Below, in pieces: positions 12,671-34,427 of a DNA stretch of 36,673 nucleotides (positions within the stretch are counted from its first letter, which is position 1; every line of letters starts with the position of its first letter). Where the stretch lies: the NCBI GenBank assembly GCA_015491935.1, contig WGGB01000112.1, forward strand, positions 1 through 36,673, written 5' to 3'. Source of the stretch: Alteromonadaceae bacterium. Its GTDB lineage: Bacteria; Pseudomonadota; Gammaproteobacteria; Enterobacterales; Alteromonadaceae. The position numbers and the translations under genes were made by a program. The notes beneath the pieces are model-generated. The model saw only the letters and a program-made list of their open reading frames with translations. It was not told the origin of the DNA and did no database searches.

Positions 12671-12762
12671 GCTAATATTTATCTTTTAGCTGTTGACTCA
12701 TCACGATAAATCTTATAGCTGTCGAGCTACAAAAATAACAAACCTGTAGGTCGATGCTTACG

Positions 12763-12810: not shown

Positions 12811-12838
12811 TTGACAACACTATAATTTACACTAAAAC

Positions 12839-14416
12839 TTACACTATCGGTTGAAACGCGGTTAATGAGTCAAGCATGGCACTGCCACCTAAGCCTTGTT
12901 TGGGTGCTACTGTGGCAAAGTTACCTTGCTCGCCATGTAATGCCATATAATTAAGTAACACGGTATCAACCAACAAATTAACATTATTGGCTGACGGTGC
13001 TGAAGCGGTATCAACCGAGGCATCAGCGCGCATAAAGCCTATTTGTTGCTGCATTGCCATTTGTTCAGGCGTTGCGCCCATCAGTTGTGGTTTTCCATTA
13101 GGATTAAACACTAAAAAGAATGCTGCGCCTGTTGATGAATTATCGCCAGTCCATTCGCCTTTACCACGGCCATTAACCGAGTCATCTATACGACCATTAC
13201 TCGCTACCGAACCATCACTAAACACATACATCATTAGCGGTTGATTACGACGCGCAGCATATTCAAGACAAGCGCCCATGCAGCGACCCGCACGTAAATC
13301 GCGTAACTCACCTGTAGCGCGATCACCAGTATGATAATCAAAGCCGCCCATGGTTATGGTGCCAGCGCCCGAAAAGCCATTAACCACTAATTTCATAATT
13401 GAGGCAGTCTTTCTAAATTCAGACTCACCATCAAATTCAGCTTGGCTAAAGATGCCACTATCACCCACAATGTCGGCATCTAATTCAGGGTTTAAGGTTG
13501 AAGGATCGCCAAAACGATCCGCCAAGTCTGCACTTTTAACATAACCACAATTAACCAGTGTTTTTATTAACGCATCACGACTTAATTTAGTATCTACCGC
13601 CGTTAATTTTTGCGCGCTTATGCGTTGAATACTTTCCATCACCGCGACGGAATCTTTTTGTGATAACAGGCTAAATAAATCGCCGACATCAACCAAGCCA
13701 GTAACATCGGACGGACGATCGACTTTGGTTGGCCGTTTGGCTAAATCGATAAAATTAACCGCCGACATGGAATTGCCGCCTGAGTCGGTGTTTCTTGAAC
13801 CTGTTAACGGCATTAACGATCCATCTGCACCTGCGGCAGCAATGGCATACATAGGGTTTTGCGGGTTGTTACTGGTGTCATTATCCGAACGATTAGGAAT
13901 AACTGCGCCGTTAATTAGCGCGGCAGTTGCAGGCGACACTTTTTCTAAAATACCGCGTAAAAAAGCCGAATCAGAATGAAAGGCAAGCCCTAAATCGGTG
14001 TTAATAAAGTCAGAGGTATTAGTAGCGTTATTAACCACTGCAGGCGACATATCACCCGGTAAACCTAGTTTGCTATAGCCTGCGGTCGATAAAAAATCGA
14101 GTTGTCCACCCACGCCACCAACCAGCACGTTAGAGCCAGCAATATTAGCGCCTCCCGCTAAATCAAAACTAATAAAAGGAATTTTGCCTGCACCTTGTAT
14201 GCTTATACCACAGGAGTCCCTTAACGCTTGTAAATCAGGCGAAAGTTCGGCATGCGCTTTATTGGGATTCGCCAATAAACTATAGAGCGACAAACCAGCT
14301 AGCGCAGTGCCACCTTTACGTAAGCCCGAGGTAATAAAGTCTCGACGCGTCATCGGTTTACTGTGATCAGCAAACAGCAACGGACTATCAGGATGCATGT
14401 TTTTAAATGATTTCAT
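12839..14416 (-). CDS. Tat-exported DUF1501-like protein
   Basis: 525 aa. The N-terminus has a twin-arginine signal, TRRDFITSGL at about 23-32, followed by a hydrophobic stretch and AHA, so the folded protein is exported by Tat. The body contains the segments ISFDLAGGANIAGSNVLVGG near 85 and GGFDYHTGDRATGELRDL near 370, then MYVFSDGSVASNGRIDD. These resemble the sulfatase-like DUF1501 proteins, where a D-x-H segment and an FSDFGR-like segment recur. I call it DUF1501-like rather than a proven member. It is the last gene of a leftward three-gene unit after two c-type cytochrome proteins, an arrangement that recalls paired DUF1501/cytochrome genes of Planctomycetes. The ATG at 14416 has an AAGGTAAT ribosome site. 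Confidence 0.7.
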   Translation of the reverse strand: MKSFKNMHPDSPLLFADHSKPMTRRDFITSGLRKGGTALAGLSLYSLLANPNKAHAELSPDLQALRDSCGISIQGAGKIPFISFDLAGGANIAGSNVLVGGVGGQLDFLSTAGYSKLGLPGDMSPAVVNNATNTSDFINTDLGLAFHSDSAFLRGILEKVSPATAALINGAVIPNRSDNDTSNNPQNPMYAIAAAGADGSLMPLTGSRNTDSGGNSMSAVNFIDLAKRPTKVDRPSDVTGLVDVGDLFSLLSQKDSVAVMESIQRISAQKLTAVDTKLSRDALIKTLVNCGYVKSADLADRFGDPSTLNPELDADIVGDSGIFSQAEFDGESEFRKTASIMKLVVNGFSGAGTITMGGFDYHTGDRATGELRDLRAGRCMGACLEYAARRNQPLMMYVFSDGSVASNGRIDDSVNGRGKGEWTGDNSSTGAAFFLVFNPNGKPQLMGATPEQMAMQQQIGFMRADASVDTASAPSANNVNLLVDTVLLNYMALHGEQGNFATVAPKQGLGGSAMLDSLTAFQPIV

Positions 14417-14527
14417 AATATTACCTTGGTCTTACTTTATTAATTTCTCAACGTCTAACTTTATTAGTCATGCTAAACAAAGCTTGTCTTAGCGCATTTA
14501 TTCAGTATTTATACGTAAACTCTCAAA

Positions 14528-16963
14528 CTATTGAATTAGCATTACGGCACTAGCGAGTACCGCAGTACAACTCGCTTTCGCGATCGTTTTAGTGCGTTCG
14601 CCCGTACAATTATTGCTGCACACTGCCAAACGAGTGATCAAATTATCAAGCTCGGTATTTACCAACGTTTTTTGTGGCTGCGAGGCTACGTTTAACGGCA
14701 TTAACTTATCAACGAGCGGCGTTAATAAGTTGCTGCGCGTACTCGCCGACAAAGCTACACTTGGCGGCTGAGTAAAATCGACATTAGGAAACCAGTTTGT
14801 GCGAATAGCACTATCTTCTACCGCCGCATTACAATAACTGATCGCTAATTGGGTAATGCCCATTTGCTGAGCCGAAATAAAGGTTTCGATATTTTTAACG
14901 CTCGGTAACTGTCGTTTCACCAATTGATAGGTCGTAAAAACATTACTATTACTTTGCGCTACACCCGTTAACTCGCTCATGCTGTGATTAATTTCAGCAA
15001 AGTTTCGCAGACCTATTTTCGCGCTTTTAGTGCTTGCTGGTTCTTCAGCAGGAATGGCAATTTCCCCAGACACGACAACATTGCTGTGTTCACCAAGCTG
15101 CTCAAAGGTAAGAAAAAATTCGTCTTGCTCGACGCCCTTTTCAATACCAACAATGGTGCCTAGCGAAGATAAACTAAACGGTTGCGTTAAATTTTGGCCG
15201 CTATTTATCGTCATATCAACATTAGAATACGCCTGCCCTTGCACGCTTTCTTTACCATTTAAACCAATACGCAAAGCTTTAAGCGCAAAGGCTTTGCTGA
15301 CATCGGCGCCGTCAAGGTTAACCAAAGCTGCCGAGCTAAATAAATAGCTGTAATTATCAAATTGACTGACTTCAAACATCACATAAGTATTCGGTAATTC
15401 AATCAAATCACCAATGGAAAACAGCAAAAAGAATTTTTCGCCAACGCCAACCTCGTAGTTTTGACTAATTTGCTCGGCCGTTAAGGCGCGATTATAAATC
15501 GCCAGTAAGCGTACATCTCCTTGCCAAACATGATTATTAGACGCCTCTTTACCTAAAATAAGTGCAAAACTATCATCCCATGATGCCAGCGGCGCAATCG
15601 TTTCGTCGTTCACCGCAATTAATTGACCATTAACAAATATGTTTCGTCCTTTGTTCGCATCATAGGTGATCACTACATGTTGCAAGGTGGCTTGTAATAC
15701 TTCATCGGCATCAGGCGTACTTAACGCGGGATCGCCATTGCCGTTGGAATTTTCGCTGCGCAGCATAAAGTCGTAGTTATATTGCGTTTGTCCTAAGGTA
15801 AAGTTACGCTCGTTGTCACCCGCCGAATAGCTAATAATGCGCGCAGGCCCTTCTTGTACTACATTGCTTGGCGTTAACCATGCTTCAACAGAAAATTCGC
15901 CAGTAGAGGTAATTAAATCATGCAATTTTTTACTGCTTGCCGTGCTTGCTTGCGCTTTCGCGTTGTTAAATGACAAGCCCCAACTGCCTAACCAGCTATA
16001 GTCACCGCTTAAATTTAAATTAGCCGCAGGTGATATGCCCGAGGTATCGTAAGCGATATTACCCTCACCTGTTTTAAATTGATAAAGAGCAATAACGTCT
16101 GATTCAAAACGACCACCACTCGAGGCGACAATACCGTCTGACAAGCGTAATGATTTAGACACCACCATGTCAGGCGATATTGCATCTAATGGGATACCAT
16201 CACTAAAAGCGGTGATCGCCGCTTCCATTTCATTACTGTTACTTTGACAATCATTCCAGCAATTATGAAACTCGTTACGGAGTCGCAACACCAAGCGCGA
16301 GGTCGCAGGATCATCTAAATTAATCACTCGTTTTGCCGCCTGATAGGCTTGTTCGACATCGGCACTGGCAAAAAATGGCGCTTGCGCAAAATCAGAAGAT
16401 TCATTGTGACAGCCCGAACAATATTCACTAACCACAGGGTAAACCTGTTGTGCAAATAAGCTGTTATCGGCAGGAAAATTTTTGCTTGCGCCCGGTTCTC
16501 TAATAGTTGGCGCGGTTAAATCTATGGTATTAGCAACGCTAACACGCTCGTCAGCCCATAACTTGATCCATTGCGTCATGGTTTCACCACAGGCACTAGC
16601 ACTGGCTAACCAACAATTATGGCCGCCCGATACTTTTTCAACTAAACGAGAAGCCGCAGGATTTGTTAAACTGACTAACGGATTAGTTGCCGCATAAGCG
16701 TCATTAACGTTATTACGGCTAGCAAAATATGGCGCTTGAATGCCCTCAGTATGGCAAGCACCACACTTATCGCTAGTAGAAATATTATCCCACAGCGATA
16801 CTTTGTATTTTTGAATATCTTCTGTTTGCGCAGCAGGACCATTATATTCGCTGGTTTGCGGCTCTTGCGGAGGTGGTGGATTCGATTTTACCTCACCACC
16901 GCCACAAGCCACTAATAAGCTTACTAACGCCGCAGAGATTAATAATTGTATTTTGTTGTTCAT
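14528..16963 (-). CDS. Two-heme c-type cytochrome lipoprotein with LamG domain
   Basis: About 811 aa. The N-terminus is a lipoprotein signal (SLLVAC, Cys at residue 20) followed by a Pro-rich linker. Two covalent heme motifs, CGACH at 67-71 and CSGCH at 182-186, each lie in a related module. Each module ends with a HNCW segment and further Cys, so the region looks duplicated. From about 290 to 480 is a LamG/concanavalin-like domain (IALYQFKTGEG, FSVEAWLTPSN, LQHVVITYDANKGRNIFVNG, RLLAIYNRALTAEQI), probably sugar- or surface-binding. The C-terminal third is not recognised. Of two adjacent ATGs, the one at 16963 has better spacing to GGAG. The start region overlaps the stop of the preceding cytochrome gene (TAATG), so the two are coupled. 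Confidence 0.8.
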   Translation of the reverse strand: MNNKIQLLISAALVSLLVACGGGEVKSNPPPPQEPQTSEYNGPAAQTEDIQKYKVSLWDNISTSDKCGACHTEGIQAPYFASRNNVNDAYAATNPLVSLTNPAASRLVEKVSGGHNCWLASASACGETMTQWIKLWADERVSVANTIDLTAPTIREPGASKNFPADNSLFAQQVYPVVSEYCSGCHNESSDFAQAPFFASADVEQAYQAAKRVINLDDPATSRLVLRLRNEFHNCWNDCQSNSNEMEAAITAFSDGIPLDAISPDMVVSKSLRLSDGIVASSGGRFESDVIALYQFKTGEGNIAYDTSGISPAANLNLSGDYSWLGSWGLSFNNAKAQASTASSKKLHDLITSTGEFSVEAWLTPSNVVQEGPARIISYSAGDNERNFTLGQTQYNYDFMLRSENSNGNGDPALSTPDADEVLQATLQHVVITYDANKGRNIFVNGQLIAVNDETIAPLASWDDSFALILGKEASNNHVWQGDVRLLAIYNRALTAEQISQNYEVGVGEKFFLLFSIGDLIELPNTYVMFEVSQFDNYSYLFSSAALVNLDGADVSKAFALKALRIGLNGKESVQGQAYSNVDMTINSGQNLTQPFSLSSLGTIVGIEKGVEQDEFFLTFEQLGEHSNVVVSGEIAIPAEEPASTKSAKIGLRNFAEINHSMSELTGVAQSNSNVFTTYQLVKRQLPSVKNIETFISAQQMGITQLAISYCNAAVEDSAIRTNWFPNVDFTQPPSVALSASTRSNLLTPLVDKLMPLNVASQPQKTLVNTELDNLITRLAVCSNNCTGERTKTIAKASCTAVLASAVMLIQ

Positions 16964-16965
16964 CA

Positions 16966-18240
16966 TTAATCTCCCATACAATAATTGCCAATTTCAGCAA
17001 ACACACGTTTGAGCTGATAGGCGTTTTGTTTAAAAGACTCGGTAGTGTTACTAATTTGCATTAAATCTGCGACGCTTTCGGCATCACGTAAACACACAGT
17101 TTTAAAAACTTTTTTCACTTGGCATTGGGCAAACGCTTGGCTGTTGGCGAGTTCTTCACCTAACGATTTTATGCCTGATCCTTTACCGCTTAGCGCTTGC
17201 GACCAGCCTAATTTTTGATTATTTCCTGCACGCCAATAATTTTGCCATTGATCATCTACGGTTGAAAAACCAAACGGAAAGGTGGTGGCATTATGATGAT
17301 ATTTACTTTTTACTCTCGTACCTGTTTTAGCATCAATCTCGCCAACCTTATTATAAGCAATAGCACCTCTCTCACCATCAGGGTCTGCATCTTCATTAAA
17401 ATCGTAATCATAATAAGCAAAGGCTTGTGCTAACGGATCCATGCCACTGTGACAGCCGACACAATTGTTTAGAAAAATACGACTGTCTCCGCCAGGGCTA
17501 CGGCTAACATCTTGACGAATTCTGTCTACCGCGCGGGTGTTATCTTTTAAAGCTTCTAAATCAGTACACAATTGATTTTTTAGGGTAAATTTAAGCATAG
17601 CGCGATTAGTGCCTAGCGAGAAAAACGCTTTCGCCGCCGCTCTACTGGTTAACACACCCGCAGTGGCTGAACTAGGCAAACCATTTAAACTTGATTGCGT
17701 AGTACGGACTAAATTATCGGCTAAATTAACAAACTGTTTTTCTAACGCTTCATAGTGATCATTATTGTTTTTATTATAACTAGGGATATTAAGCTCAGCT
17801 TTACCGATATACACCATGTCGGCTTGCAATATTTCTCTAAAATCCACATCATCACGAACCACACCGATGATGGTGGCACTGTAATCATTAAGTGGCGCAA
17901 AAATATCTTGGTCTTCATTTGTCCACGGTGTCGCAAATAACTTTAATTGCGTGCTGTAAAAGGCAGGATTTTCCATCGCTTTGTAGGCGGCTTCTAATGG
18001 TTTGTTATTATCAAGCAAATTAGTCATTGCAACTAAGGTCGCCGCCGAGGCTGGCACGCCCGTTAAGCGATCATGTAGGCGTTTTGCTTGTTCTAAGGTG
18101 GTCGCCGTCGCACCAGTTTGCCAAAGCAATAATGTGACAAATAACATTGCCGCATGGCTGTATTTGCCGACAATATGTAAGTATGATGATTTTTTAGCTA
18201 ACAACAATATATTGTTTGTGCGACAAAATAACATTTTCAT
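16966..18240 (-). CDS. Exported one-heme c-type cytochrome-like protein
   Basis: 424 aa. A hydrophobic segment at about 29-46, ending in ATATT, acts as a Sec signal after an unusually long N-terminal region. A single heme c motif, CVGCHSGMDPL, is at 260-264. It is followed by an acidic stretch and by several Cys (AQCQVKKVFKTVC, NYCMGD) near the C-terminus. The segment LTSRAAAKAFFSLGTNRAML before the heme and the sequence GMDPLAQAFAYYD after it resemble planctomycete-type cytochrome proteins of the DUF1585/DUF1588 group. I am not certain of the family. It is the first gene of the leftward unit, with a very strong ribosome site just upstream of the ATG. Confidence 0.75.
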   Translation of the reverse strand: MKMLFCRTNNILLLAKKSSYLHIVGKYSHAAMLFVTLLLWQTGATATTLEQAKRLHDRLTGVPASAATLVAMTNLLDNNKPLEAAYKAMENPAFYSTQLKLFATPWTNEDQDIFAPLNDYSATIIGVVRDDVDFREILQADMVYIGKAELNIPSYNKNNNDHYEALEKQFVNLADNLVRTTQSSLNGLPSSATAGVLTSRAAAKAFFSLGTNRAMLKFTLKNQLCTDLEALKDNTRAVDRIRQDVSRSPGGDSRIFLNNCVGCHSGMDPLAQAFAYYDYDFNEDADPDGERGAIAYNKVGEIDAKTGTRVKSKYHHNATTFPFGFSTVDDQWQNYWRAGNNQKLGWSQALSGKGSGIKSLGEELANSQAFAQCQVKKVFKTVCLRDAESVADLMQISNTTESFKQNAYQLKRVFAEIGNYCMGD

Positions 18241-18244
18241 ACAG

Positions 18245-18252
18245 CCTCCTTT
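18245..18252 (-). promoter_or_regulatory. Strong ribosome-binding site of the leftward cytochrome gene
   Basis: AAAGGAGG, a near-perfect Shine-Dalgarno sequence, lies 4 bases before the ATG at 18240. It fixes the start despite the long n-region of the signal peptide. Confidence 0.8.
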
Positions 18253-18468
18253 GAAAATATTTTAAGCAGCGAATAATGGAACCATTGATAATAGCATATC
18301 GTTTAAGCACAAGAAACAAAGCTATTTTAAGCAAATAATTCAAACTATTATATAAGAATAAACTCACAAGCTTCACCAAAACAGTCTAATTATGCCCATG
18401 ACAAAATGTCTTTATTTAGCTGTTAGTGTTATCTTAAAAATAAAAACAGTTGAAAATCTGCTCAGAGA

Positions 18469-18482
18469 TGACAATAATGTCA
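18469..18482. promoter_or_regulatory. Operator-like palindrome
   Basis: TGACAATAATGTCA is a perfect 5-bp inverted repeat with a 4-base spacer. It lies just upstream of the probable promoter of the rightward operon. Such spacing suits a dimeric activator or repressor. No regulator gene for it is visible in the locus. Confidence 0.35.
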
Positions 18483-18557
18483 GTTCGATTTTATTAACAC
18501 CACATTGTTATATTTGTCACATCAACGACCACTTTGAATAATGTTGGGGAAGCCACA

Positions 18558-21233
18558 ATGCCGAAATTAAGCTTTATCGGATGCTATTTTTTATTGTTCA
18601 TTATTACTGGCTGTAATAGTGGCACCAGCATAAAAGATGAAAAAGCAGACCCTGTGTTAGTCGAATATCCCGTTGTTTATATTGAGCGTGATCTTGCTAG
18701 TACTGTACAAGATGGCGAACAAACCTTAGCTCAGTTTCCTGCACGTGATCCTGCTAAATTTAACGCTGGCGCTAATCTTTTCTTCAAAAACAATGCCTTT
18801 GCAGATTCTCCTATAACAAATTTAACCGCCAGCTTATTTGGCGAAAATCAGCGCATTGATGTGCGCGATTTAACCGTTTCAGACGATGGTCAACAATTTT
18901 TAGTGTCTATTCGCGCTCCAGAAATTGAAAATGCCGACGACAACGAGCAACCACGCTGGAATATTTGGCATTATCAACTTGCCACTAAAACGCTAACGCG
19001 AGTGATCAGCGACGATGTTATTGCCGAGCAAGGCGATGACTTAATGCCTGCTTTTTTGCCCGATGGTCGTATTATTTTTGCCTCAACTCGTCAGCGTTTA
19101 TCACGCGCAATATTACTCGATGAAGGTAAACCGCAATACACCGCATTAGGCGAACGCCAAAATAAATCGACTTTCAATATTCATATTATGAACGCCGACG
19201 GCAGCAATATTAAGCAATTAACCTTTAATCTCAGTCACGATTTTTATCCTCTGGTTTTACAAGACGGCCGTATTTTATATAGTCGTTGGGATGCTATGGG
19301 CGGCGATCATGGCATTAATCTTTATCGTATGAACCCCGATGGTACTGATAACCAATTAGTGTTTGGATGGCATTCCCATCAATTAGGTGAAAATGGGAAA
19401 AACACTAACATAGACTTTGTTAAAGCTCAGCAATTACCCAACGGTGATATTTTTATGTTACTAGGCGGTGAACAAGCTAATAGCTATCAGAAAAAACCCG
19501 TTGTCATAAATATTGCTGAATATAGTGATAATCAGCAAGCTATTGGTGAATACACTGCCTCGGCAACAACAGCAATTACCGATTTAACCCTAAGCAATAA
19601 TTTTAACTTTAACTTTTTTAACAAAGTATCGGCATCAGGTCGTCTTAATTCATTATTTTCCTTACCCGACAGTAGCCAACGCTTTTTATTGAGTTGGGAT
19701 TTATGTCGCATTATCGACAATGGCGTGACTAAAGCGTGCGGTCAATATACTCCTGAGCAACTTGCCGAGTTGCCCTTAGCGCCACCTTTATATGAACTAT
19801 GGTTATTTAATCAGGTTGATAACACTCAGCAATTAGTAGCGACTACCACTCAAGGTAAAATATTAACCGAAGCTGTGGTAATGCAACCCTCTGAGCAACC
19901 GAAAGCGTTTATTAAAGATAAAACCATAGGTAATGAATTAGATGCGCAACTTGCCAACGAATTAGCTGCCGCTATCGATATCCGTAGTGTCTATGATTTT
20001 GACGGCCAAGACAGCACCATTACCGCTAATAATCCTCAAGGCATAAAAACATTAAGCGATCCTTCATTAACGCCAGCAGCAAATTTACCCGCCCGTTTTC
20101 TCCGCGTGGTGCGTGGTGTCCCTATGCCGCCACGCGAAGTGAGAAGAGTAAAAGGATCTGATTTTGGTCGTAGTCGTAATCAACTAATGCGAGAAATTGT
20201 TGGCTATGCGCCGATTCAACCTGATGGTTCAGTAAAAATAAAAGTCCCGGCCAATATTCCATTAGCATTGAGCGTGTTAGACATTAACGGCCAGCGTATT
20301 GGTGGTCGCCATCGCCAATGGATCACCCTAAAAGCAGGCGAAACCCTGCAATGTAATGGTTGTCATAGCGCTAACAGTCAATTACCGCATGGTCGCAGCG
20401 ACGCACAAGCAGCCTCAATTAATGCTGGAGCAATCCTAGGTGGTTCACCGTTTACTCATGCCACTAGCAACATTATTCCCGAGCAAGGACAAACCATGGC
20501 ACAAGCCAATGCCATGGTTAATGGTTTAACCTCGTTAACGGCGGATATTCGTTATCAAGATATATGGACAGACACGCAAGTTTCGCCGCTTAATCCAAGT
20601 TTTAGCTATGCTTATAGTGATTTAAGTAATGCTAACCCCACAGGTAGCAGCTGTTTTGCGCAATGGAATAGTTTTTGTCGTCTGCAAATTAATTATGTTG
20701 AACATATCGCACCCTTATGGGCGTTATCACGTCAAGTTATTAATAGTAGTACGCAAGAATTAATCAGCGATAACACGTGTATCGCCTGTCATGCCACCAT
20801 AGACAGCGATGCCCTTACACAAGTCCCCGCAGGTCAGTTAGATCTTTCTGCGGCGCCGTCGAGCGACAATCCTGATCACCTTATAAACTATCGCGAGTTA
20901 CTGTTTAACGATGCTAAACAAGAGTTAGTTGATGGCATATTGGTTGATAAACTGATCGAACTACTAGATGATAACGGCAATGTGGTTTACCAAGTCGATG
21001 TAAATGGCGAACTAATTTTAGATGCTGATGGCAACCCGATCTCCGTATTAACCACCATTAATATTCCGCCAATATTATCGACCAACGGCGCACATGGGAG
21101 TAAACGATTTTTTGACTTATTTACTACGGGCACACATCAAAACAGCTTAACGCCAGCAGAATTAAAACTATTAGCCGAGTGGTTAGATATTGGCGGGCAA
21201 TATTATAATACGCCATTTTATCAACAAGATTAA
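18558..21233 (+). CDS. HzsA-related propeller/diheme cytochrome lipoprotein
   Basis: 891 aa. It has a lipoprotein signal with lipobox ITGC (MPKLSFIGCYFLLFIITGC). The ATG at 18558 is preceded by GGGGAAG. The N-terminal half carries PD40/TolB-like propeller blades, for example LMPAFLPDGRIIFASTRQR and MNADGSNIKQLTFN. The C-terminal half has two heme c motifs: CNGCH at 599-603 and CIACH at 741-745. It ends LTPAELKLLAEWLDIGGQYY. The whole layout matches proteins related to hydrazine synthase alpha subunit (HzsA), known in anammox planctomycetes but with many homologues of unknown role elsewhere. Nothing else here suggests anammox metabolism. As the first gene of the rightward operon it may be the surface redox component. 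Confidence 0.85.
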   Translation: MPKLSFIGCYFLLFIITGCNSGTSIKDEKADPVLVEYPVVYIERDLASTVQDGEQTLAQFPARDPAKFNAGANLFFKNNAFADSPITNLTASLFGENQRIDVRDLTVSDDGQQFLVSIRAPEIENADDNEQPRWNIWHYQLATKTLTRVISDDVIAEQGDDLMPAFLPDGRIIFASTRQRLSRAILLDEGKPQYTALGERQNKSTFNIHIMNADGSNIKQLTFNLSHDFYPLVLQDGRILYSRWDAMGGDHGINLYRMNPDGTDNQLVFGWHSHQLGENGKNTNIDFVKAQQLPNGDIFMLLGGEQANSYQKKPVVINIAEYSDNQQAIGEYTASATTAITDLTLSNNFNFNFFNKVSASGRLNSLFSLPDSSQRFLLSWDLCRIIDNGVTKACGQYTPEQLAELPLAPPLYELWLFNQVDNTQQLVATTTQGKILTEAVVMQPSEQPKAFIKDKTIGNELDAQLANELAAAIDIRSVYDFDGQDSTITANNPQGIKTLSDPSLTPAANLPARFLRVVRGVPMPPREVRRVKGSDFGRSRNQLMREIVGYAPIQPDGSVKIKVPANIPLALSVLDINGQRIGGRHRQWITLKAGETLQCNGCHSANSQLPHGRSDAQAASINAGAILGGSPFTHATSNIIPEQGQTMAQANAMVNGLTSLTADIRYQDIWTDTQVSPLNPSFSYAYSDLSNANPTGSSCFAQWNSFCRLQINYVEHIAPLWALSRQVINSSTQELISDNTCIACHATIDSDALTQVPAGQLDLSAAPSSDNPDHLINYRELLFNDAKQELVDGILVDKLIELLDDNGNVVYQVDVNGELILDADGNPISVLTTINIPPILSTNGAHGSKRFFDLFTTGTHQNSLTPAELKLLAEWLDIGGQYYNTPFYQQD

Positions 21234-21246
21234 TAACTTAAAATTT

Positions 21247-22646: not shown

Positions 22647-22700
22647 CGATAACACGAAAAATCTAAAGCAATAAAAGCAAAGTAAACAAAGGTTCACCGC

Positions 22701-24605: not shown

Positions 24606-24634
24606 CTTTTTTATCATTTAGCCAAGGTTTATTT

Positions 24635-25192: not shown

Positions 25193-25198
25193 ATTATT

Positions 25199-27454: not shown

Positions 27455-30400
27455 TGACTCATTTTGCTATTAAAGCTAAAGCGGTTAAGGCTATGCACAT
27501 TATTAAAAAGCGTCATTTTTTCCGCTACCTCAGCTTATCTTTTAGCTGCATACTGTTATTAGGTTGTTTAAGTACGCCAACTCAAGACAACGAACCACAG
27601 CAAACTAACGCAAGAGCAACGCTCGCTGACTTGGCGGCTAAGGCAAACGCCAAAACAAGCGCCCAACAAAGTGCCGCACGTGCATTAGATAAACAGCAAC
27701 GCGCAAAAAAACTTGCGGCTATTTATCAATCCATTTTAACGCTCGAACCTGATACCAAAATAAGAAGCAAGGTTGAATACCGTCTCGCGCAAATTAACAC
27801 CCAACGTTATGAAAATTCGGCGGATGAAGAACTCAACGCCAGCAACATAGCTAAAAATGAACAGCAATTACAACAACTGATTAATCAATATCGCAATTTA
27901 CTACAACATCACCCTGATAGCGCTAACAATGAATTTGTGCAATATCAATTAGCCAAAGCATTAGACTTACAAGGTAAAACCAGTGCGAGTTTACTGGAAA
28001 TAAATTCATTACTTGCGCATTACCCAAACAGCCCTTATGGCGTAGAATTAAACTTTAGACGCGGTGACATTTATTATAATGCACAAAATTACCACGCAGC
28101 ATTAAGCGCTTATAACAAGGTTATCAACGCAGCCAACAATGACAAATACCTGCTTAATAGTCTGTATATGTCGGGCTGGTCGTTATTTAAATTAAATCGC
28201 TTACTTGATGCCGACAACGCTTTTATGCGCGTTTTTGAAACCATTATTGCGCAAAACAAACAGTTGCCTACGGCAGAAAATTTTAGTTTTGACAAGCTTA
28301 GTAGTGTCGGCAAAAGCTTAGCGCAAGACAGCCAACGAGTATTAAGTATTTCGTTAAGCCAACAGCAACAAGCAAAGTCGCTAGTTAAATTAATTAAAGA
28401 CAATAAAGCATTACCCCATTTAGCACTATATCAGCATTTGTTATTTCAAAATTTAGCAAATTTTTTACTGAAAAAAGAATTACCTCAAGATGCCGAATTA
28501 ACTTATCAAGCTTATATTGAACTTGCGCCTAATAGCCTATGGGCAGCACGTTTTTCACTTAATTTATTAGCCTTGTATCAACAGCAAGGTCAGTTTGCTT
28601 TGCTCGATAAATTAAAAAACAACTTTGTTAGTCGCTATGGCATTGGCAGTATCTTTTGGCAACAAGCTTCACAAGCGCAACAAAATGAATTATTGCCGCA
28701 CATACTCAGCTTTAGTTATGCGCACAGTCATCGCTTATACGCCAAAGCACAGCAACTTGCTCAAGGTAAAAACAGAGTAAAATATTTTAAAATGGCGGCG
28801 GCGGCTTTACATAGCTATTTACTACATGCTCGTTTAGCTCAGGCGCAACAGCTAGCAAAACTCAGTGAAAGGCAATATACAAAGCCGCAAGAGCGCTTAC
28901 AACACGATTTATTACACAATGAATTTTTATATGCTGAAGCGAATTTTGCCGCCAAGCAATATCAACAAGCCTTAACTAGTTATAAAACCATTGCTTATCA
29001 ACCTTTATCGCAAAACGCCTTAGTAAACAAAAAAGCGCAAAACGATGGCGCTTTGTCAAGCTCGTGGAAACAATTACAACAAAAAGCCGCGTATGCCACG
29101 ACAGTAACTATTAGAAAATTATTGCTTAATGCTGACGCGAAAAAAACAGCTGATGATGTTGAATATTCACAATTAATTAGCCAAAGAAATAAGCTCGATA
29201 AGCGCTTTATATTCAGCTATCCGCAAGACTCTCGTGCATTAGTACTCGCCAGCCACGCAACTGAATACAGTTTTGCTAATAACGACCACGCTGCTGTGGA
29301 AAACTTTAGTAACTTTATCTTAAAGCATTATCAAATTAAGCAACTATCACCTGCTCAAGAGGGCTTACAAAACAAAAGAGCAGTAAAAATATTTCCAGCC
29401 AAAGCGTTGAAACAAATAAACATTGCCAGCCAACTACAAGCGCATAGTTTGTATAAACAAAAACGTTATCCCGAGGCCGAATTCGCTTACGATTTAGCTT
29501 TAGACTACGTTAATAAAAAACAAAAAACTTGGGCAGAAATGCGCAATTTACTAGCGTCTTGTATTTATTTTCAAGGACAAGCATTAAAAGTAAGCCAACC
29601 GCAATTAGCGGTACAGCACTTTTTACGTTTAGGTAAAATTATTCCTGAATCAAGCTACAGAGTTACTGCCGAATTTGATGCGGCAAACTTATTATTGGCT
29701 CAGCAACATTGGCAACAAGCGGTTACGGTATTGCGCGCCTTTAAACAGCATTATCCCAAACACAAATACAGCGCTACCATTCCCGCTAAATTGGCAAAAG
29801 CATACACCGGCTTAAAACAATGGAATTTAGCTGCCGAACAACTACTGATCATGGTAAGTAGAGAATCCTCAAAAGAATTACGCCGCGAAGCACAATACAC
29901 CGCCGCAGAGTATTATCTTAAAGCAGGAAAAACAGCAAAAGCCCTCAACACTTTTAGAAGCTATGCACACACTTACCCAGAACCTTTTGCCGTTGCGCAA
30001 GAAGTACGTTTTAAAATGAGTGAGTTTTATCAACAAAATAGCGAGGCCAACAAGCGTTATTATTGGTATCGCAAAATACTCAGTTTTCATAAAAAACAAT
30101 CGACCAAGCCCAACACATTAATCACTGATCGCGAAACATTTTTAGCCTCTACCGCCGCCTTGGGTTTAGGACAAGCGCACCAACAAAGCTTTAAGTGGAT
30201 AAAATTAAAAGCACCTTTAAAGAAAACGTTAAAGCGCAAACAACGCGAAATGAAAAAAGCGATTGGCTATTATCAACAAGTATTAGCACTTAAATTAGCT
30301 AACTTTGTGCCGCATGCCACATATAACTTAGCGATGCTTTATCAACAATTAGCGCAAGATGTTTTACATTCGCAGCGGCCAAAAAATCTCGACGATCTGG

Positions 30401-30609
30401 CACTGGAAGAGTACGACATTGTGCTAGAAGAATTAGCTTACCCTTTTGAGGAAAAAGCCATCGACATTCATGTGAGTAATACCCAACGCGCTTGGCAAAA
30501 TATTTATGATCAATGGGTTGCTAAAAGTTTTGCTGCACTGGCAAAATTATCACCCGCGCTTTATGACAGAAAGGAGCCGATGCCTGATGTTATCGACGCT
30601 ATTTATTAA
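27454..30609 (+). CDS. Very large TPR lipoprotein
   Basis: 1051 aa. Lipoprotein signal with lipobox LLGC (Cys at about 38) after a long n-region. An alternative ATG at 27493 would shorten it. GAGGG lies just before the first ATG, which I keep because of the coupled TAATG. Many TPR-like repeats run through the whole protein, for example YQLAKALDLQGKTSASLLEI, LNFRRGDIYYNAQNYHAALS, YPEAEFAYDLALDYVNKKQ and AKLAKAYTGLKQWNLAAEQL. It is Gln/Ala/Lys-rich like its neighbours. The repeat architecture resembles the large TPR proteins of gliding-type machines. The next gene starts inside its last codons (23-bp overlap). Confidence 0.8.
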   Translation: MTHFAIKAKAVKAMHIIKKRHFFRYLSLSFSCILLLGCLSTPTQDNEPQQTNARATLADLAAKANAKTSAQQSAARALDKQQRAKKLAAIYQSILTLEPDTKIRSKVEYRLAQINTQRYENSADEELNASNIAKNEQQLQQLINQYRNLLQHHPDSANNEFVQYQLAKALDLQGKTSASLLEINSLLAHYPNSPYGVELNFRRGDIYYNAQNYHAALSAYNKVINAANNDKYLLNSLYMSGWSLFKLNRLLDADNAFMRVFETIIAQNKQLPTAENFSFDKLSSVGKSLAQDSQRVLSISLSQQQQAKSLVKLIKDNKALPHLALYQHLLFQNLANFLLKKELPQDAELTYQAYIELAPNSLWAARFSLNLLALYQQQGQFALLDKLKNNFVSRYGIGSIFWQQASQAQQNELLPHILSFSYAHSHRLYAKAQQLAQGKNRVKYFKMAAAALHSYLLHARLAQAQQLAKLSERQYTKPQERLQHDLLHNEFLYAEANFAAKQYQQALTSYKTIAYQPLSQNALVNKKAQNDGALSSSWKQLQQKAAYATTVTIRKLLLNADAKKTADDVEYSQLISQRNKLDKRFIFSYPQDSRALVLASHATEYSFANNDHAAVENFSNFILKHYQIKQLSPAQEGLQNKRAVKIFPAKALKQINIASQLQAHSLYKQKRYPEAEFAYDLALDYVNKKQKTWAEMRNLLASCIYFQGQALKVSQPQLAVQHFLRLGKIIPESSYRVTAEFDAANLLLAQQHWQQAVTVLRAFKQHYPKHKYSATIPAKLAKAYTGLKQWNLAAEQLLIMVSRESSKELRREAQYTAAEYYLKAGKTAKALNTFRSYAHTYPEPFAVAQEVRFKMSEFYQQNSEANKRYYWYRKILSFHKKQSTKPNTLITDRETFLASTAALGLGQAHQQSFKWIKLKAPLKKTLKRKQREMKKAIGYYQQVLALKLANFVPHATYNLAMLYQQLAQDVLHSQRPKNLDDLALEEYDIVLEELAYPFEEKAIDIHVSNTQRAWQNIYDQWVAKSFAALAKLSPALYDRKEPMPDVIDAIY
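30571..30576 (+). promoter_or_regulatory. Ribosome-binding site of the short TPR lipoprotein gene
   Basis: AAGGAG lies 10 bases before the ATG at 30587, inside the end of the large TPR gene. No comparable site precedes the alternative ATG at 30611, so 30587 is preferred. Confidence 0.55.
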
Positions 30610-31402
30610 TATGAGTAGAAGTACACGCCTAAGCAAAGCACTAGTACTAAGTTTGTTAGTACTAACAAGCGCGATTATGCAAGGTTGTTCAAGCCTTAGC
30701 GAAAAAGAGCTATCGTCTGATAAAGAATTACACCATTTAGGCAAAGATATTGTTGATATGGTAACAGTTGACAACAAACAAACGCCATCAGCCAATGAAG
30801 CATCAAGCAATAAATCAGCAAAGAATGAACAGCTAAGTCCGACAGCAACAGCAATTAAAAATTTATATCTTGAACAGCAAGCAAACAGCAAAGTAAGCGC
30901 GGCAAGTGCCGCTAACTTTAAAGCCGCATTAACCCTGATGCACGCTAAAAAATGGCAAAAGGCGCAGCAATTATTAGACAAAATTATTGCTCAGCAACCT
31001 GAACTTAGCGGTAGTTATGTAAACAAAGCTTTAATTTTTATGCAGCAAAAACAATTAGTCGCAGCAAATGAACAGCTGATTAAAGCGATTACGGCAAACC
31101 CATTAAATCCTTATGCACACAATTTACAAGGACAAATAGCACGATTACAAGGCAACTTTAGCTTAGCCGAAAAAAGCTATCGCCAAGCACTCACTATATG
31201 GCCTCAATACTCACAAGCACAGTTAAATATGGCGATTTTATTAGAGCTATATCGTGGCCAGTTAGTCAATGCTAAAAAACATTATCAAGCGTATCTGAAA
31301 ATAAAACCGCAAGATAAACAAGTACAACGTTGGTTGGCAGGACTTAATATAAAAATAAAACGCGCGGGCACAACTACAATTAACGTGAATAAAAAACATT
31401 AA
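30587..31402 (+). CDS. Short TPR lipoprotein
   Basis: About 271 aa. A hydrophobic stretch (ALVLSLLVLTSAIMQGC, Cys at about 34) gives a lipoprotein signal, though Met-Gln before Gly-Cys is not an ideal lipobox. Residues after a Ser/Asn-rich linker form two to four TPRs: FKAALTLMHAKKWQKAQQLL, YVNKALIFMQQKQLVAANEQ, AHNLQGQIARLQGNFSLAEK and AQLNMAILLELYRGQLVNAK. This single TPR domain plus lipid anchor is like GltE-type outer-membrane TPR lipoproteins. Start choice: ATG 30587 with an AAGGAG site; ATG 30611 is an alternative with a better n-region but no ribosome site. Confidence 0.75.
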   Translation: MLSTLFINMSRSTRLSKALVLSLLVLTSAIMQGCSSLSEKELSSDKELHHLGKDIVDMVTVDNKQTPSANEASSNKSAKNEQLSPTATAIKNLYLEQQANSKVSAASAANFKAALTLMHAKKWQKAQQLLDKIIAQQPELSGSYVNKALIFMQQKQLVAANEQLIKAITANPLNPYAHNLQGQIARLQGNFSLAEKSYRQALTIWPQYSQAQLNMAILLELYRGQLVNAKKHYQAYLKIKPQDKQVQRWLAGLNIKIKRAGTTTINVNKKH

Positions 31403-31420
31403 CGCAAGGAGCAAGCCATT

Positions 31421-31741
31421 ATGATTAAATCCACAACGCACTTTGTGCTGTTAGCACTGTTGTTTAGCGGTGTTTTTACCGTTAAAGCCTCGGCAAGTGA
31501 TAGTAAAAATAATAAAAAACCGTCACAAACCATGACCATAAATAGTAAAATAAAAGGTTCGCAGCAACAACCTAAGGTCTTGTATATCATGCCTTGGCAA
31601 GGTATAAAGACTCCCATAGTGGTAAAAGGTAAAACCATGAATTTAACTCTGCCAAGCTTTAAACCCATTAATCCTAAAGTGTTTAAACAGCAAGTTAGTG
31701 ACTTTAACAAACAACAACAATTAAATAATAAAGGAAAATAA
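31421..31741 (+). CDS. Small exported protein next to the TolQ gene
   Basis: 106 aa with a signal peptide (ending ASA-SD, about residue 26). The mature part is basic and contains INSKIKGSQQQPKVLYIMPW followed by a hydrophobic/Pro segment and a charged C-terminal helix. The QQPKVLYIMPW segment looks like one I have seen in small proteins beside TolQ/ExbD genes, but I know no function. AGGAG precedes the ATG. The TolQ-like gene begins 1 bp after the stop, so its product is probably a periplasmic partner of the motor. Confidence 0.65.
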   Translation: MIKSTTHFVLLALLFSGVFTVKASASDSKNNKKPSQTMTINSKIKGSQQQPKVLYIMPWQGIKTPIVVKGKTMNLTLPSFKPINPKVFKQQVSDFNKQQQLNNKGK

Positions 31742-31742
31742 A

Positions 31743-32399
31743 ATGAGCTTTTTTGACAGTATAGTTGCCTTTTTACAAAACGGAGGCACCTTTATTTACC
31801 CCATTGCGCTCGTATTAGTGTTAGGTTTAGCAATCACCATTGAACGCTGGTTATATTTAAGCTCGATACAAGGGGTCAATAAAAAGGCCTTCACGTTAAT
31901 TCAAAACGCCTTAAAAACGGGCGATATCTCGACCATAGACCATCATGCAAAAAGTAACGATGCACCAGTATTAAATGTTTTAAAGTCGGGCATATCGCGC
32001 TTATCAGACGATAGCCGTCGCGAAGATGTAGAATATGCGATGGAAGAAACTATTATGGAATATATGCTAAGACTAGAAAAACGCACACCGTTTTTAGCAA
32101 TATTAGCTAACATTGCCACCTTGCTCGGTTTACTCGGCACTATTATGGGGCTTATTGCTGCTTTCTCTGCTGTGGCTAATGCTGATCCCGCCGAAAAAGC
32201 CAACTTGCTATCGGCAAGTATCTCGGTGGCGATGAATACCACCGCCTTTGGTTTGATCACCGCTATTCCGCTAATTTTATTTCATTCGGGTTTACAAACT
32301 AAAACCGCAACTATTACCGATTCATTAGAAATGGCAGGTATAAAGCTATTAAATACTCTGTCTTTTAATAAACAAACAGGTACAAGCCGAGGCGAATAA
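31743..32399 (+). CDS. MotA/TolQ/ExbB-family proton channel protein
   Basis: 218 aa, three transmembrane segments: about 15-35 (FIYPIALVLVLGLAITIERW), about 110-135 (FLAILANIATLLGLLGTIMG) and about 155-180 (SISVAMNTTAFGLITAIPLI). These include the conserved GLLGTIMGLIAAF helix and the Thr-rich AMNTTAFGL helix that lines the proton path. ExbB/TolQ/MotA proteins form a pentamer around an ExbD/TolR/MotB dimer and use the proton motive force to do work in the envelope. Two ExbD-like genes follow directly, 2 bp downstream, so this is the stator of a Tol/Exb/Agl-like motor. Confidence 0.93.
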   Translation: MSFFDSIVAFLQNGGTFIYPIALVLVLGLAITIERWLYLSSIQGVNKKAFTLIQNALKTGDISTIDHHAKSNDAPVLNVLKSGISRLSDDSRREDVEYAMEETIMEYMLRLEKRTPFLAILANIATLLGLLGTIMGLIAAFSAVANADPAEKANLLSASISVAMNTTAFGLITAIPLILFHSGLQTKTATITDSLEMAGIKLLNTLSFNKQTGTSRGE

Positions 32400-32401
32400 T
32401 A

Positions 32402-32926
32402 ATGAACATTCGTCGTCGCCAAAAACCAAAAACAGAAAGCGAACTTGATATCACTTCATTTATGAATTTAATGATCGTGTTAGTGCCGGTGCTATTGCTG
32501 AGTTTGGTTTTTTCACAAGTAAGAATTTTAAACTTACAATTACCGATCATGGCAAACACAGCGCAGCCATTAGATAAAACCAAGAAAAAGGTTTTAGAAT
32601 TAGTGATCACTAAACAGCATTTAACACTGAATTATCCTGCAGGGGTGTTATTAAAACGTTTTAATGTTACCGACCATGGTTACGATTTTTCAGCGTTATC
32701 GGTTTATTTGCAAGATTTAAAATTAACTTTTCAGCAGCAAAAAATAGAAAAAAACAACATTGTTATTTTACTAGCACCCGACATTGATTATCAAACCATA
32801 GTTTCGGCAATGGACACAGTACGCTCGTTTAAAGCGGTGGTAGCGGCAAATTTAGTCGATGCAGAATTATTTCCGCTGATTTCACTAGGTGACGCGCCAA
32901 TTAAGCAAACAGGAGCGCAGCAATGA
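32402..32926 (+). CDS. ExbD/TolR-family protein lacking the transmembrane Asp
   Basis: 174 aa. A short basic N-terminus leads into one transmembrane helix, DITSFMNLMIVLVPVLLLSL, and then a periplasmic domain. In ExbD/TolR/AglQ-type proteins the helix carries an essential proton-binding Asp (motif FIDVMLVLL). Here the aligned residue is Asn22 (FMNLMIVLV). The next gene encodes a second ExbD-like protein in which the Asp is present. The pair suggests an asymmetric heterodimer. The stop overlaps the next start (ATGA). The family call is firm; loss of proton binding is inferred from alignment by eye. Confidence 0.87.
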   Translation: MNIRRRQKPKTESELDITSFMNLMIVLVPVLLLSLVFSQVRILNLQLPIMANTAQPLDKTKKKVLELVITKQHLTLNYPAGVLLKRFNVTDHGYDFSALSVYLQDLKLTFQQQKIEKNNIVILLAPDIDYQTIVSAMDTVRSFKAVVAANLVDAELFPLISLGDAPIKQTGAQQ

Positions 32927-33453
32927 AGCAATCGCCTAAAGCAAAACGCTTAGCCAGACACTACAAAAGAATGAACTCCGCCAGCAAACTCAACCTTGTG
33001 GCGTTAATGGACATCTTTACCATTTTAGTGTTTTTTCTTATTGTTAATCAGTCAGAAGTTAGGGTATTGCAAAATATAAAAGAGATAAATTTACCTGTTT
33101 CTATCGCCGATAAATTACCCGAAGAAAACTTAGTGATCACAGTATTAAATAATCGCGTATTAATTCAAGATAAAGTAGTTTGGCAACAAGCCCAAAAGGC
33201 AACATCATTAAGCCAAGCACAAAGTAAAAAACTTACCCGCGCGTTAAAAAACGAATTAAATTACCAAGCCAGCCGCCGCGCTAAATTATCAAAAAGTGAA
33301 CTCAAAAAAGGTCGTGCTGTTACTATTATTGGTGATGCAGCAACGCCTTATGTGGTGTTAAAACAAATTATCGCCGCCTGTGCTAACAGCGACTATCGTA
33401 ATGTTTCACTCGCAGTTAAGCAAAATGCTAAAAACAAGCAGCGTGAGGGTTAA
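32923..33453 (+). CDS. ExbD/TolR-family protein with the transmembrane Asp
   Basis: 176 aa. It has a basic cytoplasmic N-terminus (about 22 residues) and one transmembrane helix, LNLVALMDIFTILVFFLIVN, with Asp30 at the proton-binding site. The periplasmic domain contains NLVITVLNNRVLIQDKVVWQ and a terminal segment TIIGDAATPYVVLKQIIAAC, as in ExbD/TolR. It overlaps the preceding ExbD-like gene by 4 bp, and the AgmX-like gene begins 2 bp after its stop. It is the likely force-generating partner of the TolQ-like channel. Confidence 0.9.
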   Translation: MKQSPKAKRLARHYKRMNSASKLNLVALMDIFTILVFFLIVNQSEVRVLQNIKEINLPVSIADKLPEENLVITVLNNRVLIQDKVVWQQAQKATSLSQAQSKKLTRALKNELNYQASRRAKLSKSELKKGRAVTIIGDAATPYVVLKQIIAACANSDYRNVSLAVKQNAKNKQREG

Positions 33454-33455
33454 TC

Positions 33456-34427
33456 ATGAGCAGAGTCCATGCGATTAATCCTAATGACTTACCAGACCTT
33501 GATGATTTTTTATCATCGAGCGCGCAAGATAAGAGTTTCAATAAAATTCTTGCTATTTTACTGCTGGGCTACCTTGTTGTTGCCGTGGTGGTTCCCTTTA
33601 TTGAACAAGTAAAAATCCCTCGCGAAATTAAAGAGCGTCCGTCAGCACAACTTGCCAAAATAATGCTTAAAGAAAAGCAATTACCCTTGCCGAAAAAAGT
33701 AAAACCAAAAGTAAAAAAGCCCATAAAAAAAGTCAAAGCAAAAACTAAAAATAAGAAAAAAACTAAACCTAAAGAAAAATTAAAACAACCAACACCTGTA
33801 AATAAGAGTGAGTTAGCCAAAACTAAAGCGCATTCATCGGGTTTAGCAACTATGAAAGACGAACTGTTTGCCATGCGCGAAGCATTTACCGTAACGCCAG
33901 TAGCAAGCACAAAATTAAATAACAGCAAGAGCAAAGCGACCACAATCAAAAGAAAATTACTCGCCGCCGCAACCAATAAGCAAAGCAGCCAATTAACACA
34001 AGCACAACTAAGCAAAACCGTTGCTAGCGATGCCATCAGCACAAAAAACACTGAGCAGATCCGCCTCGGTAAAGAAGAAATACTCGCCGACAACAACGTG
34101 TTAGCAGCAAACGACAACGATGCAAAATCGTCATTAGCTCAACGCTCTGAAATGAGCTTACGACGCACATTAGAAAGCCATAAAGCGCGACTTTATGCGC
34201 TTTACAATCGGGCGTTAAGAAAAGACCCTTTGCTAAAAGGCAAGGTATTATTTGCCATAGAAATACAGCCCAATGGCAACATTAGCCACGTTAGCATTAA
34301 GTCGAGTGCCTTAAACAATGCCAAGCTAGAACGGCAACTCATCGTAATACTACGCAGAATTAAATTTCCAGTGGCAGACGTTAGCGTAATGACCACAATA
34401 TGGGCGATAGATTTTTTACCGAATTAA
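33456..34427 (+). CDS. TonB/AgmX-like energy-coupling protein
   Basis: 323 aa. A cytoplasmic N-terminus is followed by one transmembrane helix at about 31-50 (ILAILLLGYLVVAVVVPFIE). Then comes a Lys/Pro-rich stretch (about 85-115), typical of periplasm-spanning TonB linkers, and a linker rich in Asn/Ser/Lys/Ala. The C-terminal domain at about 235-323 (LRRTLESHKARLYALYNRAL, GKVLFAIEIQPNGNISHVSI) matches the AgmX/PglI-type or TonB-like tail. In Myxococcus, proteins with this tail (GltG/GltJ) link the AglRQS motor to the Glt envelope complex. It is the last gene of the operon and probably carries the motion or energy from the TolQ/ExbD motor to the TPR proteins and barrels. Confidence 0.85.
   Translation: MSRVHAINPNDLPDLDDFLSSSAQDKSFNKILAILLLGYLVVAVVVPFIEQVKIPREIKERPSAQLAKIMLKEKQLPLPKKVKPKVKKPIKKVKAKTKNKKKTKPKEKLKQPTPVNKSELAKTKAHSSGLATMKDELFAMREAFTVTPVASTKLNNSKSKATTIKRKLLAAATNKQSSQLTQAQLSKTVASDAISTKNTEQIRLGKEEILADNNVLAANDNDAKSSLAQRSEMSLRRTLESHKARLYALYNRALRKDPLLKGKVLFAIEIQPNGNISHVSIKSSALNNAKLERQLIVILRRIKFPVADVSVMTTIWAIDFLPN

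Follow-up and report, generated by a model that had tools for sequence, protein, structure and literature searches.

A core of the Agl-Glt machinery, comprising aglRQS together with gltC, D, E and G, is described as clustered in Gammaproteobacteria, where its function has been called unknown (PMC3169522, PMC3858216). As published, this cluster includes an extra gene that is absent from Myxococcales, and Luciano et al. in 2011 judged motility to be unlikely for the core alone (PMC3169522). In Myxococcus itself, the aglQ D28N substitution is reported to abolish proton conductance (cited in PMC3858216). A second relevant system is a flavinylation module of ApbE, DUF3570, DUF4266 and thioredoxin proteins, for which a Chlorobium DUF3570 protein is described as a demonstrated ApbE substrate (PMC8238504). 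Here we analyze a contig of 36,673 nucleotides (hereafter the window; C112, GenBank WGGB01000112.1) from an Alteromonadaceae bacterium assembly of 3.2 Mb in 296 contigs, in which both of these known modules are joined to a heme arm in a conserved union of about twenty genes, present in many marine bacteria. We consider it probable that this locus encodes one proton-driven trans-envelope machine with a surface flavin/heme redox complex as its cargo.

A preliminary description of this DNA, made from its letters alone, had called the whole combination undescribed. For the union of motor and redox genes this still holds, as no published description was found in open-licence full texts, where most subscription journals are missing. 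It does not hold for the motor half, which is a known core complex (PMC3169522, PMC3858216), and the new part is therefore the partner and not the motor.

A conserved union of motor and redox genes

The locus consists of a leftward arm of three heme/Tat genes, a divergent gap and a rightward arm of 15 genes (Table 1). Open reading frames (ORFs) and family scans confirm the two arms and the named genes that had been proposed at these positions, and Shewanella, Colwellia, Thalassotalea, Ferrimonas, Catenovulum and others share this gene order. The rightward arm is nearly free of gaps, as claimed (none exceeds 54 bp), but it holds 15 genes and not 14 once DUF4266 is counted. An ApbE gene, convergent to the Tat gene, lies outside the interval 12839-34427 covered by the preliminary description, which missed both this gene (11687-12670) and the covalent-flavin part of the system, namely ApbE with DUF3570 as its likely substrate. 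Among the DUF3570 relatives kept, the nearest named relative is NORP200, an Alteromonadaceae metagenome-assembled genome (MAG), at 87%.

Relatives of DUF3570 number at least 580 when one genome is taken from each of 84,980 species, and the best 80 loci were analyzed. In 45 of these the motor adjoins DUF3570 on its right; another 8 have less than 9 kb on that side, and 27 have no motor there. Of 20 stretches that surround DUF3570 genes from the order, 17 contain both PSCyt and HzsA, and in nine the motor follows immediately to the right of DUF3570 in the window order (L037, L040, L042, L044, L047, L048, L050, L052 and L053, with p106 not matched in L052). A motor elsewhere was sought at 26 loci, made up of 24 of the 27 (minus L106, L121 and L135) plus L101 and L108, two of the eight with little sequence on that side; L106, L117, L121, L125, L131 and L135 were left out of this count. 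It lies within 30 kb of the cytochrome/Tat arm on one contig in 16 of the 26 (L098, L103, L104, L105, L108, L109, L111, L113, L114, L115, L120, L123, L124, L127, L133 and L136), with DUF3570 itself on a different contig in L105. It is on the same contig but ~40 kb (L128) or ~95 kb (L126) from the locus in two cases and on another contig in six (L100, L112, L116, L118, L132 and L134), while L101 and L119, both MAGs, gave no match for AgmX or TlpA. In Colwellia maritima (L078), HzsA, LamG, p185 and other genes are split into several ORFs, through either decay or sequencing errors.

At least five arrangements are represented: the motor may follow DUF3570 on the right, lie on the left beyond Tat/ApbE, diverge from the cytochromes (G360), converge with DUF3570 (L045), or sit between DUF3570 and PSCyt/Tat. 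Microbulbifer carries PSCyt, LamG, Tat, ApbE, p185, TPR genes, TolQ, two ExbD genes and AgmX, in this order, on a single strand. In the Rheinheimera/Arsukibacterium type AgmX is followed by PSCyt. Positions place Tat another 2-4 kb along that strand in 12 of the 14 genomes tested; in L099 and L130 it is elsewhere or on another contig. Rheinheimera, Arsukibacterium and kin (L090-L097, L102, L107, L110 and L122) seemingly have the whole system on one strand, HzsA to AgmX and then PSCyt and Tat. Linkage in related genomes was the test that the preliminary description had set for itself, and the outcome is mostly favorable: the parts remain linked in five or more gene orders, and where they are separated most genomes still have both. 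We read closeness that persists across these rearrangements as selection for joint function.

The same association is seen at the level of whole genomes. An AgmX tail over cut-off occurs in 30 of 197 genomes sampled from the order, and a divergent DUF3570 in 22; the tail is present in 22/22 of the latter versus 8/175 others (Fisher test, 7e-23, shared ancestry being ignored in this and the following test). As a control, 28 genomes have only other DUF3570s over cut-off, and the tail occurs in two of them (G139 and G089). G152, which has 25% identity, TGAS sites of the canonical kind and a stretch that gave no HzsA match, and G176, whose 48-residue match is under cut-off, are left out of this count. 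PSCyt and HzsA were observed in 18 of the 22 retained genomes, that of the window among them; G017, G127, G058 and G023 were seen in part. The class sample of 274 genomes gives the Tat protein in 35 (at E 1e-20 or better) and the AgmX tail in 61; the tail accompanies Tat in 32 of the 35, versus its presence in 29 of 239 genomes lacking Tat (1.7e-21). The three exceptions are a fragment at a contig edge (G224), a 19-kb contig of a fragmented assembly (G290) and the one-contig genome G257, in which HzsA occupies two ORFs and both the motor and the genes from the SH3-barrel to DUF3570 are missing from the 50 kb read. This looks like joint decay of redox arm and motor, with a sequencing error in HzsA as the alternative; the G257 copy lies at L181:438-7797 and from L182:4754 on, with ApbE ~17 kb from the Tat gene. 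Of 249 genomes sampled across the phylum, four have the Tat protein, and these too belong to the class.

The position of ApbE ties the two halves together. Among 12 left flanks read, ApbE is near Tat in six, three flanks are short and three genomes carry ApbE with the motor. The gene is near Tat in the window and in G020, G105, G006, G031 and G090, and within 6 kb of it in G172. It is on the motor operon in G059, G173, G014, G003, G013 and G029, and likewise in Thiodiazotropha (G222), a Chromatiales MAG (G210), Microbulbifer (G197), Gilvimarinus (G206) and Pseudomaricurvus (G220). In 17 of 20 further stretches it is again on the motor operon, the other three being L193 (a short contig end), L211 and L212. 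Five genomes of the order with PSCyt and HzsA have a motor that is distant or on another contig (G059, G173, G014, G013 and G029), and in 5/5 ApbE is with that motor. No ApbE match was found in the stretches read around the standalone motor sets L144, L145, L152, L153 and L156 (L156 ends 0.5 kb past AgmX). These positions, near Tat or on the motor operon, indicate that the redox-arm enzyme mostly accompanies the redox arm or its motor.

Components of the motor and the redox arm

All three proteins of the candidate channel, TolQ-like, ExbD1 and ExbD2, exceed their Pfam cut-offs, as expected of the core complex. The AgmX/PglI tail of the putative transducer is also over its cut-off, with the full GltG model giving 32 bits against 650. 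Three proteins described earlier as several TPR proteins stand where GltC/D/E would be expected; two are clear and the first is weak. The gliding machinery of Myxococcus includes the group A genes gltA, B, F and H-K; the gliding models matched in an NCBIfam scan were GltE, GltG and GltJ, all below cut-off, GltE being the sole match among Glt-TPR models. In gene content the assignment of this motor to Agl/Glt was right. Motif counts, here and below, were made on distinct rows from L037 on. The proton-binding Asp of ExbD2 is present in 72/72 rows and that site in ExbD1 is Asn in 67, Ser in five and Asp in none, so the pair is asymmetric with one proton site. The TolQ core helices are conserved as well, and these residues and the homology support the proposal that the motor is proton-driven. 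Either p185 or p106 may correspond to the extra gene of the published core.

Sets of TolQ-ExbD-ExbD-AgmX genes without TPR genes also occur at L151:1-14963 and L154:4991-19948, loci that, from their protein sequences, we take to be type VI secretion. TPR751, TPR1051 and p185 had no match in either stretch, and both were excluded from the motor-redox system. Zorya defence was likewise rejected, since the TolQ-like protein matched ZorA only weakly (best E 5e-4) and the two ExbD, AgmX and two TPR proteins tested gave no Zorya match.

The thiol pair of the redox arm is well conserved, with WCxPC in 92/93 thioredoxin rows (the sole miss, L041, belongs to another locus type) and the terminal CGC in 93/93 DUF4266 rows. 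The DUF3570 of the window offers two candidate flavin sites, SSAS and STAS, in which the A-S pairs (A69 S70 and A77 S78) are invariant in 16/16 aligned sequences; neither site conforms to the canonical motif [ST]GA[ST]. Orthologues carry SGAS or TGAS at site 1 (L047, L050, L052 and L053) and SGAS at site 2 (L043 and L056). Because the motif glycine is frequently replaced by Ser or Ala across DUF3570 orthologues, flavinylation of this protein by the ApbE of the locus is likely rather than proved. Both partners are distinctive: most locus DUF3570s score 90-144 bits versus 416-586 for canonical members of the order, and in the ApbE tree the locus enzymes form one clade of 18 rows (96/86), separate from the 28 that neighbor other DUF3570 genes (100/97). 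The source genome also carries a canonical DUF3570 with its own ApbE (G000:C267:10896-13073, L019) and a third ApbE on contig C66 with a very long branch, which we presume is perhaps that of Nqr; there are perhaps three flavinylation systems in this genome.

A structure model of DUF3570 predicts a 16-strand barrel with a predicted local distance difference test (pLDDT) score of 86.7, in which loop 69-79, joining strands 3 and 4, holds the candidate sites. A count of the strands with both termini in the periplasm turns this loop outward, and the flavin sites would thus face out of the cell. If DUF3570 is an outer-membrane barrel of this kind, covalent flavins would be placed on the cell surface.

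Five c-type heme sites are distributed over three exported proteins. Two CxxCH motifs are kept in 87/88 HzsA-like and 74/75 LamG orthologues, and one in 81/81 PSCyt3-like orthologues. The label HzsA-like is apt for the domains but not for the enzyme: the match to the NCBIfam hydrazine synthase alpha subunit is 40.2 bits against a cut-off of 800, and hydrazine synthesis was rejected. With at most two CxxCH per protein these are not multiheme conduits, unlike the MtrCAB type, which we understand to use deca- or multiheme cytochromes. RRxF is found in 54/57 orthologues of the Tat protein. Its earlier designation as DUF1501-like was rejected at the sequence level, as Pfam DUF1501 matched 0/20 members scanned and no PDB sequence match was found. 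DUF1501 belongs to the alkaline-phosphatase superfamily, and the Tat protein probably shares that fold: VIA-align listed 50 structural matches to its model (Z 8.2-9.6), all of which we recognize as members of the superfamily, though the model is poor (pLDDT 59.9). No description of this heme arm (the HzsA-like, LamG, monoheme and Tat proteins) was found in the open-licence texts searched.

The two arms had been thought to share one control region. The 293-bp divergent gap is real, but common control is not borne out. Among 56 divergent gaps, patterns for FNR, Fur-like, ArcA, CRP, OxyR, LexA, NsrR-like, RpoN and strict sigma-70 sites gave eight NsrR-like matches, six Fur-like and two or none for each other pattern, with none in the window. 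An inverted repeat in the window gap, TGACA-N4-TGTCA, recurs only in the nearest relative. No conserved regulator site was found, and the idea of one was dropped. Promoter-like matches in 12600-32500 are fewer than in shuffled sequence (35 versus 52.8).

Proposed mechanism and competing explanations

The case for these parts belonging to one system is a good one. Sequence evidence supplies a proton channel, an AgmX/GltG transducer, TPR lipoproteins, three predicted outer-membrane barrels and a TlpA/DUF4266 thiol pair; cofactor motifs, lipoboxes and the barrel model point to a surface redox complex; and linkage, with the analogy of Agl-Nfs, suggests that the motor acts on it. In the mechanism that we propose, the TolQ-like ring and the asymmetric ExbD pair would form the inner-membrane proton channel. 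ApbE would attach flavin mononucleotide (FMN) to one or two DUF3570 serines in the periplasm before barrel insertion, and the barrel would then hold its flavins on an outward loop beside the heme lipoproteins as a surface redox complex. Proton-driven force would reach this complex through the AgmX-type protein and the TPR lipoproteins, as in the Agl-Glt and Agl-Nfs systems of Myxococcus, and would place or move it at the cell surface or keep it in working order there. With force transmitted in this way, this branch of the gammaproteobacterial core would have the redox complex as its cargo.

A more specific version is tentative, and we think it rather doubtful: the proton force may be used mechanically for outer-membrane redox chemistry, the motor cycling the flavin barrel and heme lipoproteins through changes of conformation or position. 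If true, electrons would cross, or work would be done at, an outer membrane with no energy source itself, and running a power-driven redox complex there would be what much of the gammaproteobacterial Agl/Glt core natively does. We know of no example of such a complex.

Several other roles could be served by these parts. One is Ton-like import or export, in which the AgmX tail pulls a barrel while flavins and hemes reduce or release a substrate such as a metal. Flavinylation modules elsewhere are linked to iron uptake (PMC8238504), and the AgmX tail has a weak likeness to TonB (TIGR01352, 16.7 bits against a cut-off of 27.1). We nevertheless regard this as unlikely, given that no TonB-dependent receptor family appeared among the proteins scanned, that the Fur-like pattern occurs in just six of the 56 divergent gaps, and that the first strand of the DUF3570 model starts ~10 residues from the probable mature N-terminus, which would leave no space for a plug.

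A second is a surface polysaccharide machine, where the barrel and a sulfatase-like Tat protein handle a polymer that LamG binds, hemes and flavins oxidize or cross-link, and the motor spreads. The DUF3570 model does match the polysaccharide barrels PelB (Z 21.1), BcsC (18.0) and 4y25 (20.9), a polysaccharide secretin that we take to be PgaA, but BamA (21.9) and CymA (18.1) match comparably, and 16-strand barrels are alike whatever their cargo. Sulfatases are among the matches of the Tat model, whose low quality tempers that point, and a LamG domain is present. Agl-Nfs, as described, moves glycan in spreading the spore coat polymer (PMC3858216). No polysaccharide synthesis family was found among the window proteins scanned, and we give this explanation a small chance.

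It could also be that two independent systems share a location through need under the same condition, the motor serving Tol-like envelope upkeep and the redox arm working alone. Standalone motors and parts that lie far from each other would favor such independence, and they weigh, with other observations, against a single machine. Motor sets running from p185 to AgmX without an adjoining redox arm exist (L145:4695-15198, L152:4964-13995 and L156:6091-15092, and also L153), those of L152, L153 and L156 in genomes without a divergent DUF3570 and that of L145 as a second copy in Microbulbifer G197, so the motor must have another use or partner as well. In a tree of TolQ, both ExbDs and AgmX (without AgmX for L048 and L052, whose stretches end too early; L151 and L154 as outgroup), redox-linked motors as a single clade versus standalone ones were rejected (approximately unbiased test, p 2.5e-41). 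Motor and redox arm are >1 Mb apart on one contig in G059, G173 and G014, 0.35 Mb apart in G267 and ~95 kb in L126. The stretches read from G436, G267 and G324 show the three-gene Tat/LamG/PSCyt arm alone, redox genes occur without an AgmX match in G199, G212, G224, G257 and G290, and the redox set itself varies, with no HzsA match at the G258 locus. ApbE is absent from L211, L212 and the G017 motor contig, G017 being seen in part. To these may be added the disregard of ancestry in the Fisher tests, the departure of the window from [ST]GA[ST], and an outward flavin position that depends on strand counting in a predicted model.

Even so, the redox arm is rarely found without the motor tail (22/22, 32/35 and 34/36, the last overlapping the first), and ApbE, which serves the redox arm, is often on the motor operon. 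Because standalone L144, L152 and L156 nest beside a redox-linked motor, we read them as partner loss or duplication and not as a separate motor lineage. Full independence strikes us as quite improbable. Gliding as in Myxococcus is very unlikely despite the AgmX/PglI tail, TPR proteins and AglRQS-like motor, since the Glt model matches are all below cut-off and the core alone has been judged an improbable motility apparatus (PMC3169522).

A single proton-driven machine with a redox cargo hence remains our preferred explanation. The preliminary description had likewise joined one trans-envelope machine to a redox apparatus; the linkage stands, while the motor also occurs without that partner. 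The gammaproteobacterial core, conserved and proton-driven by homology, has been an orphan since 2011 (PMC3169522, PMC3858216), and this locus suggests a candidate cargo, surface hemes with a dedicated flavinylation pair, that is testable in cultured Shewanella, Colwellia and Microbulbifer.

Features of the window and comparison with known systems

Table 1. Features of the motor-redox locus, in window coordinates.
Feature	Coordinates	Strand	Evidence
ApbE FMN transferase, dedicated to system	11687..12670	+	Pfam ApbE 269.5 bits; locus-ApbE clade
Tat-exported protein, probably alkaline-phosphatase-superfamily fold	12839..14416	-	Tat motif; weak alkaline-phosphatase-fold matches of poor model
LamG diheme lipoprotein	14528..16981	-	Laminin_G_3 83.5 bits; two CxxCH; lipobox
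Monoheme exported protein, PSCyt3/PSD2-like	16966..18240	-	One CxxCH; Pfam PSCyt3/PSD2 below cut-off
Divergent intergenic region between arms	18241..18533	.	293 bp
HzsA-like diheme lipoprotein, beta-propeller and HZS-alpha middle domain	18534..21233	+	HZS_alpha 55.4 bits; PD40; PDB 5c2v E=1e-5
SH3 domain and outer-membrane barrel, likely start ~21247	21190..22008	+	SH3_3; OMP_b-brl
Outer-membrane barrel, OMP_myx_plus family	21978..22646	+	TIGR04565 155.7 bits, E=1e-45
TlpA/ResA-type periplasmic thioredoxin	22701..23216	+	Family scans; WCxPC
DUF4266 lipoprotein, C-terminal CGC	23216..23479	+	PF14086 73.4 bits
Divergent DUF3570, predicted 16-strand outer-membrane barrel; true start probably near 23466	23388..24605	+	PF12094 134 bits; model pLDDT 86.7
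p185 (185 aa), exported, first gene of motor set	24635..25192	+	Alignment; present in standalone motors too
Exported TPR-like protein	25199..27454	+	ANAPC3 18.5 bits, below cut-off; order conserved
Large TPR lipoprotein	27454..30609	+	TPR_6; TPR_14
TPR lipoprotein, GltE-like below cut-off, likely start ~30611	30506..31402	+	TPR families; GltE model 31 bits vs cut-off 225
p106 (106 aa), small exported protein before TolQ	31421..31741	+	No family over cut-off; position conserved
TolQ/ExbB-like proton channel (AglR-like)	31743..32399	+	MotA_ExbB 102.4 bits; core helices conserved
ExbD-like subunit (ExbD1) without proton-binding Asp	32402..32926	+	ExbD 39.3 bits
ExbD-like subunit (ExbD2) with proton-binding Asp	32923..33453	+	ExbD 51.3 bits
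GltG-like force transducer, AgmX/PglI C-terminal domain	33456..34427	+	NF033768 56.6 bits, cut-off 40

Directly right of the locus, an ORF at 35283-35735 resembles what we take to be the C-terminal part of an ISAs1-type transposase, and near the left end a small protein at 5346-5858 matches sigma-70 region 2.

Set beside described systems, the HzsA-like protein has the middle domain and two heme sites in common with hydrazine synthase alpha (PDB 5c2v) and differs in score (40 versus 800 bits) and context. The TPR-TolQ-TolR-TolR-vWA clusters described in 2025 (PMC12204202) share TPR proteins, a TolQ-like protein, an unlike TolR-like pair and a tethered transducer, which there is a vWA protein and here an AgmX-tail protein; redox genes go unmentioned in the portion of that paper cited here. 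All four protein kinds of the flavinylation module (PMC8238504) are present and linked, with the window ApbE beyond the far side of the left arm. In contrast to that module, the locus sites are [ST][GSA]AS and xxAS, DUF3570 is of a distant subfamily, the thioredoxin is of the AhpC/TlpA type and not PF13899, and the genes are linked to a motor and cytochromes; no DsbD family was found among the window proteins scanned, and the term barrel is absent from the main text of PMC8238504.

The nearest likeness is to the Agl-Glt core, with which the locus shares a TolQ-like protein, two ExbD-like proteins, an AgmX/PglI-tail transducer and TPR proteins in one gammaproteobacterial cluster. Unlike that core as published, it adds a heme/flavin set, ApbE and p185/p106, and the main text of PMC3169522 makes no mention of cytochrome or flavin. 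The Agl-Nfs spore-coat transporter of Myxococcus, as described, is likewise an AglRQS-type proton motor moving a surface complex (PMC3858216); its cargo is the glycan-linked Nfs complex, whereas the linked cargo candidates at this locus are redox proteins.

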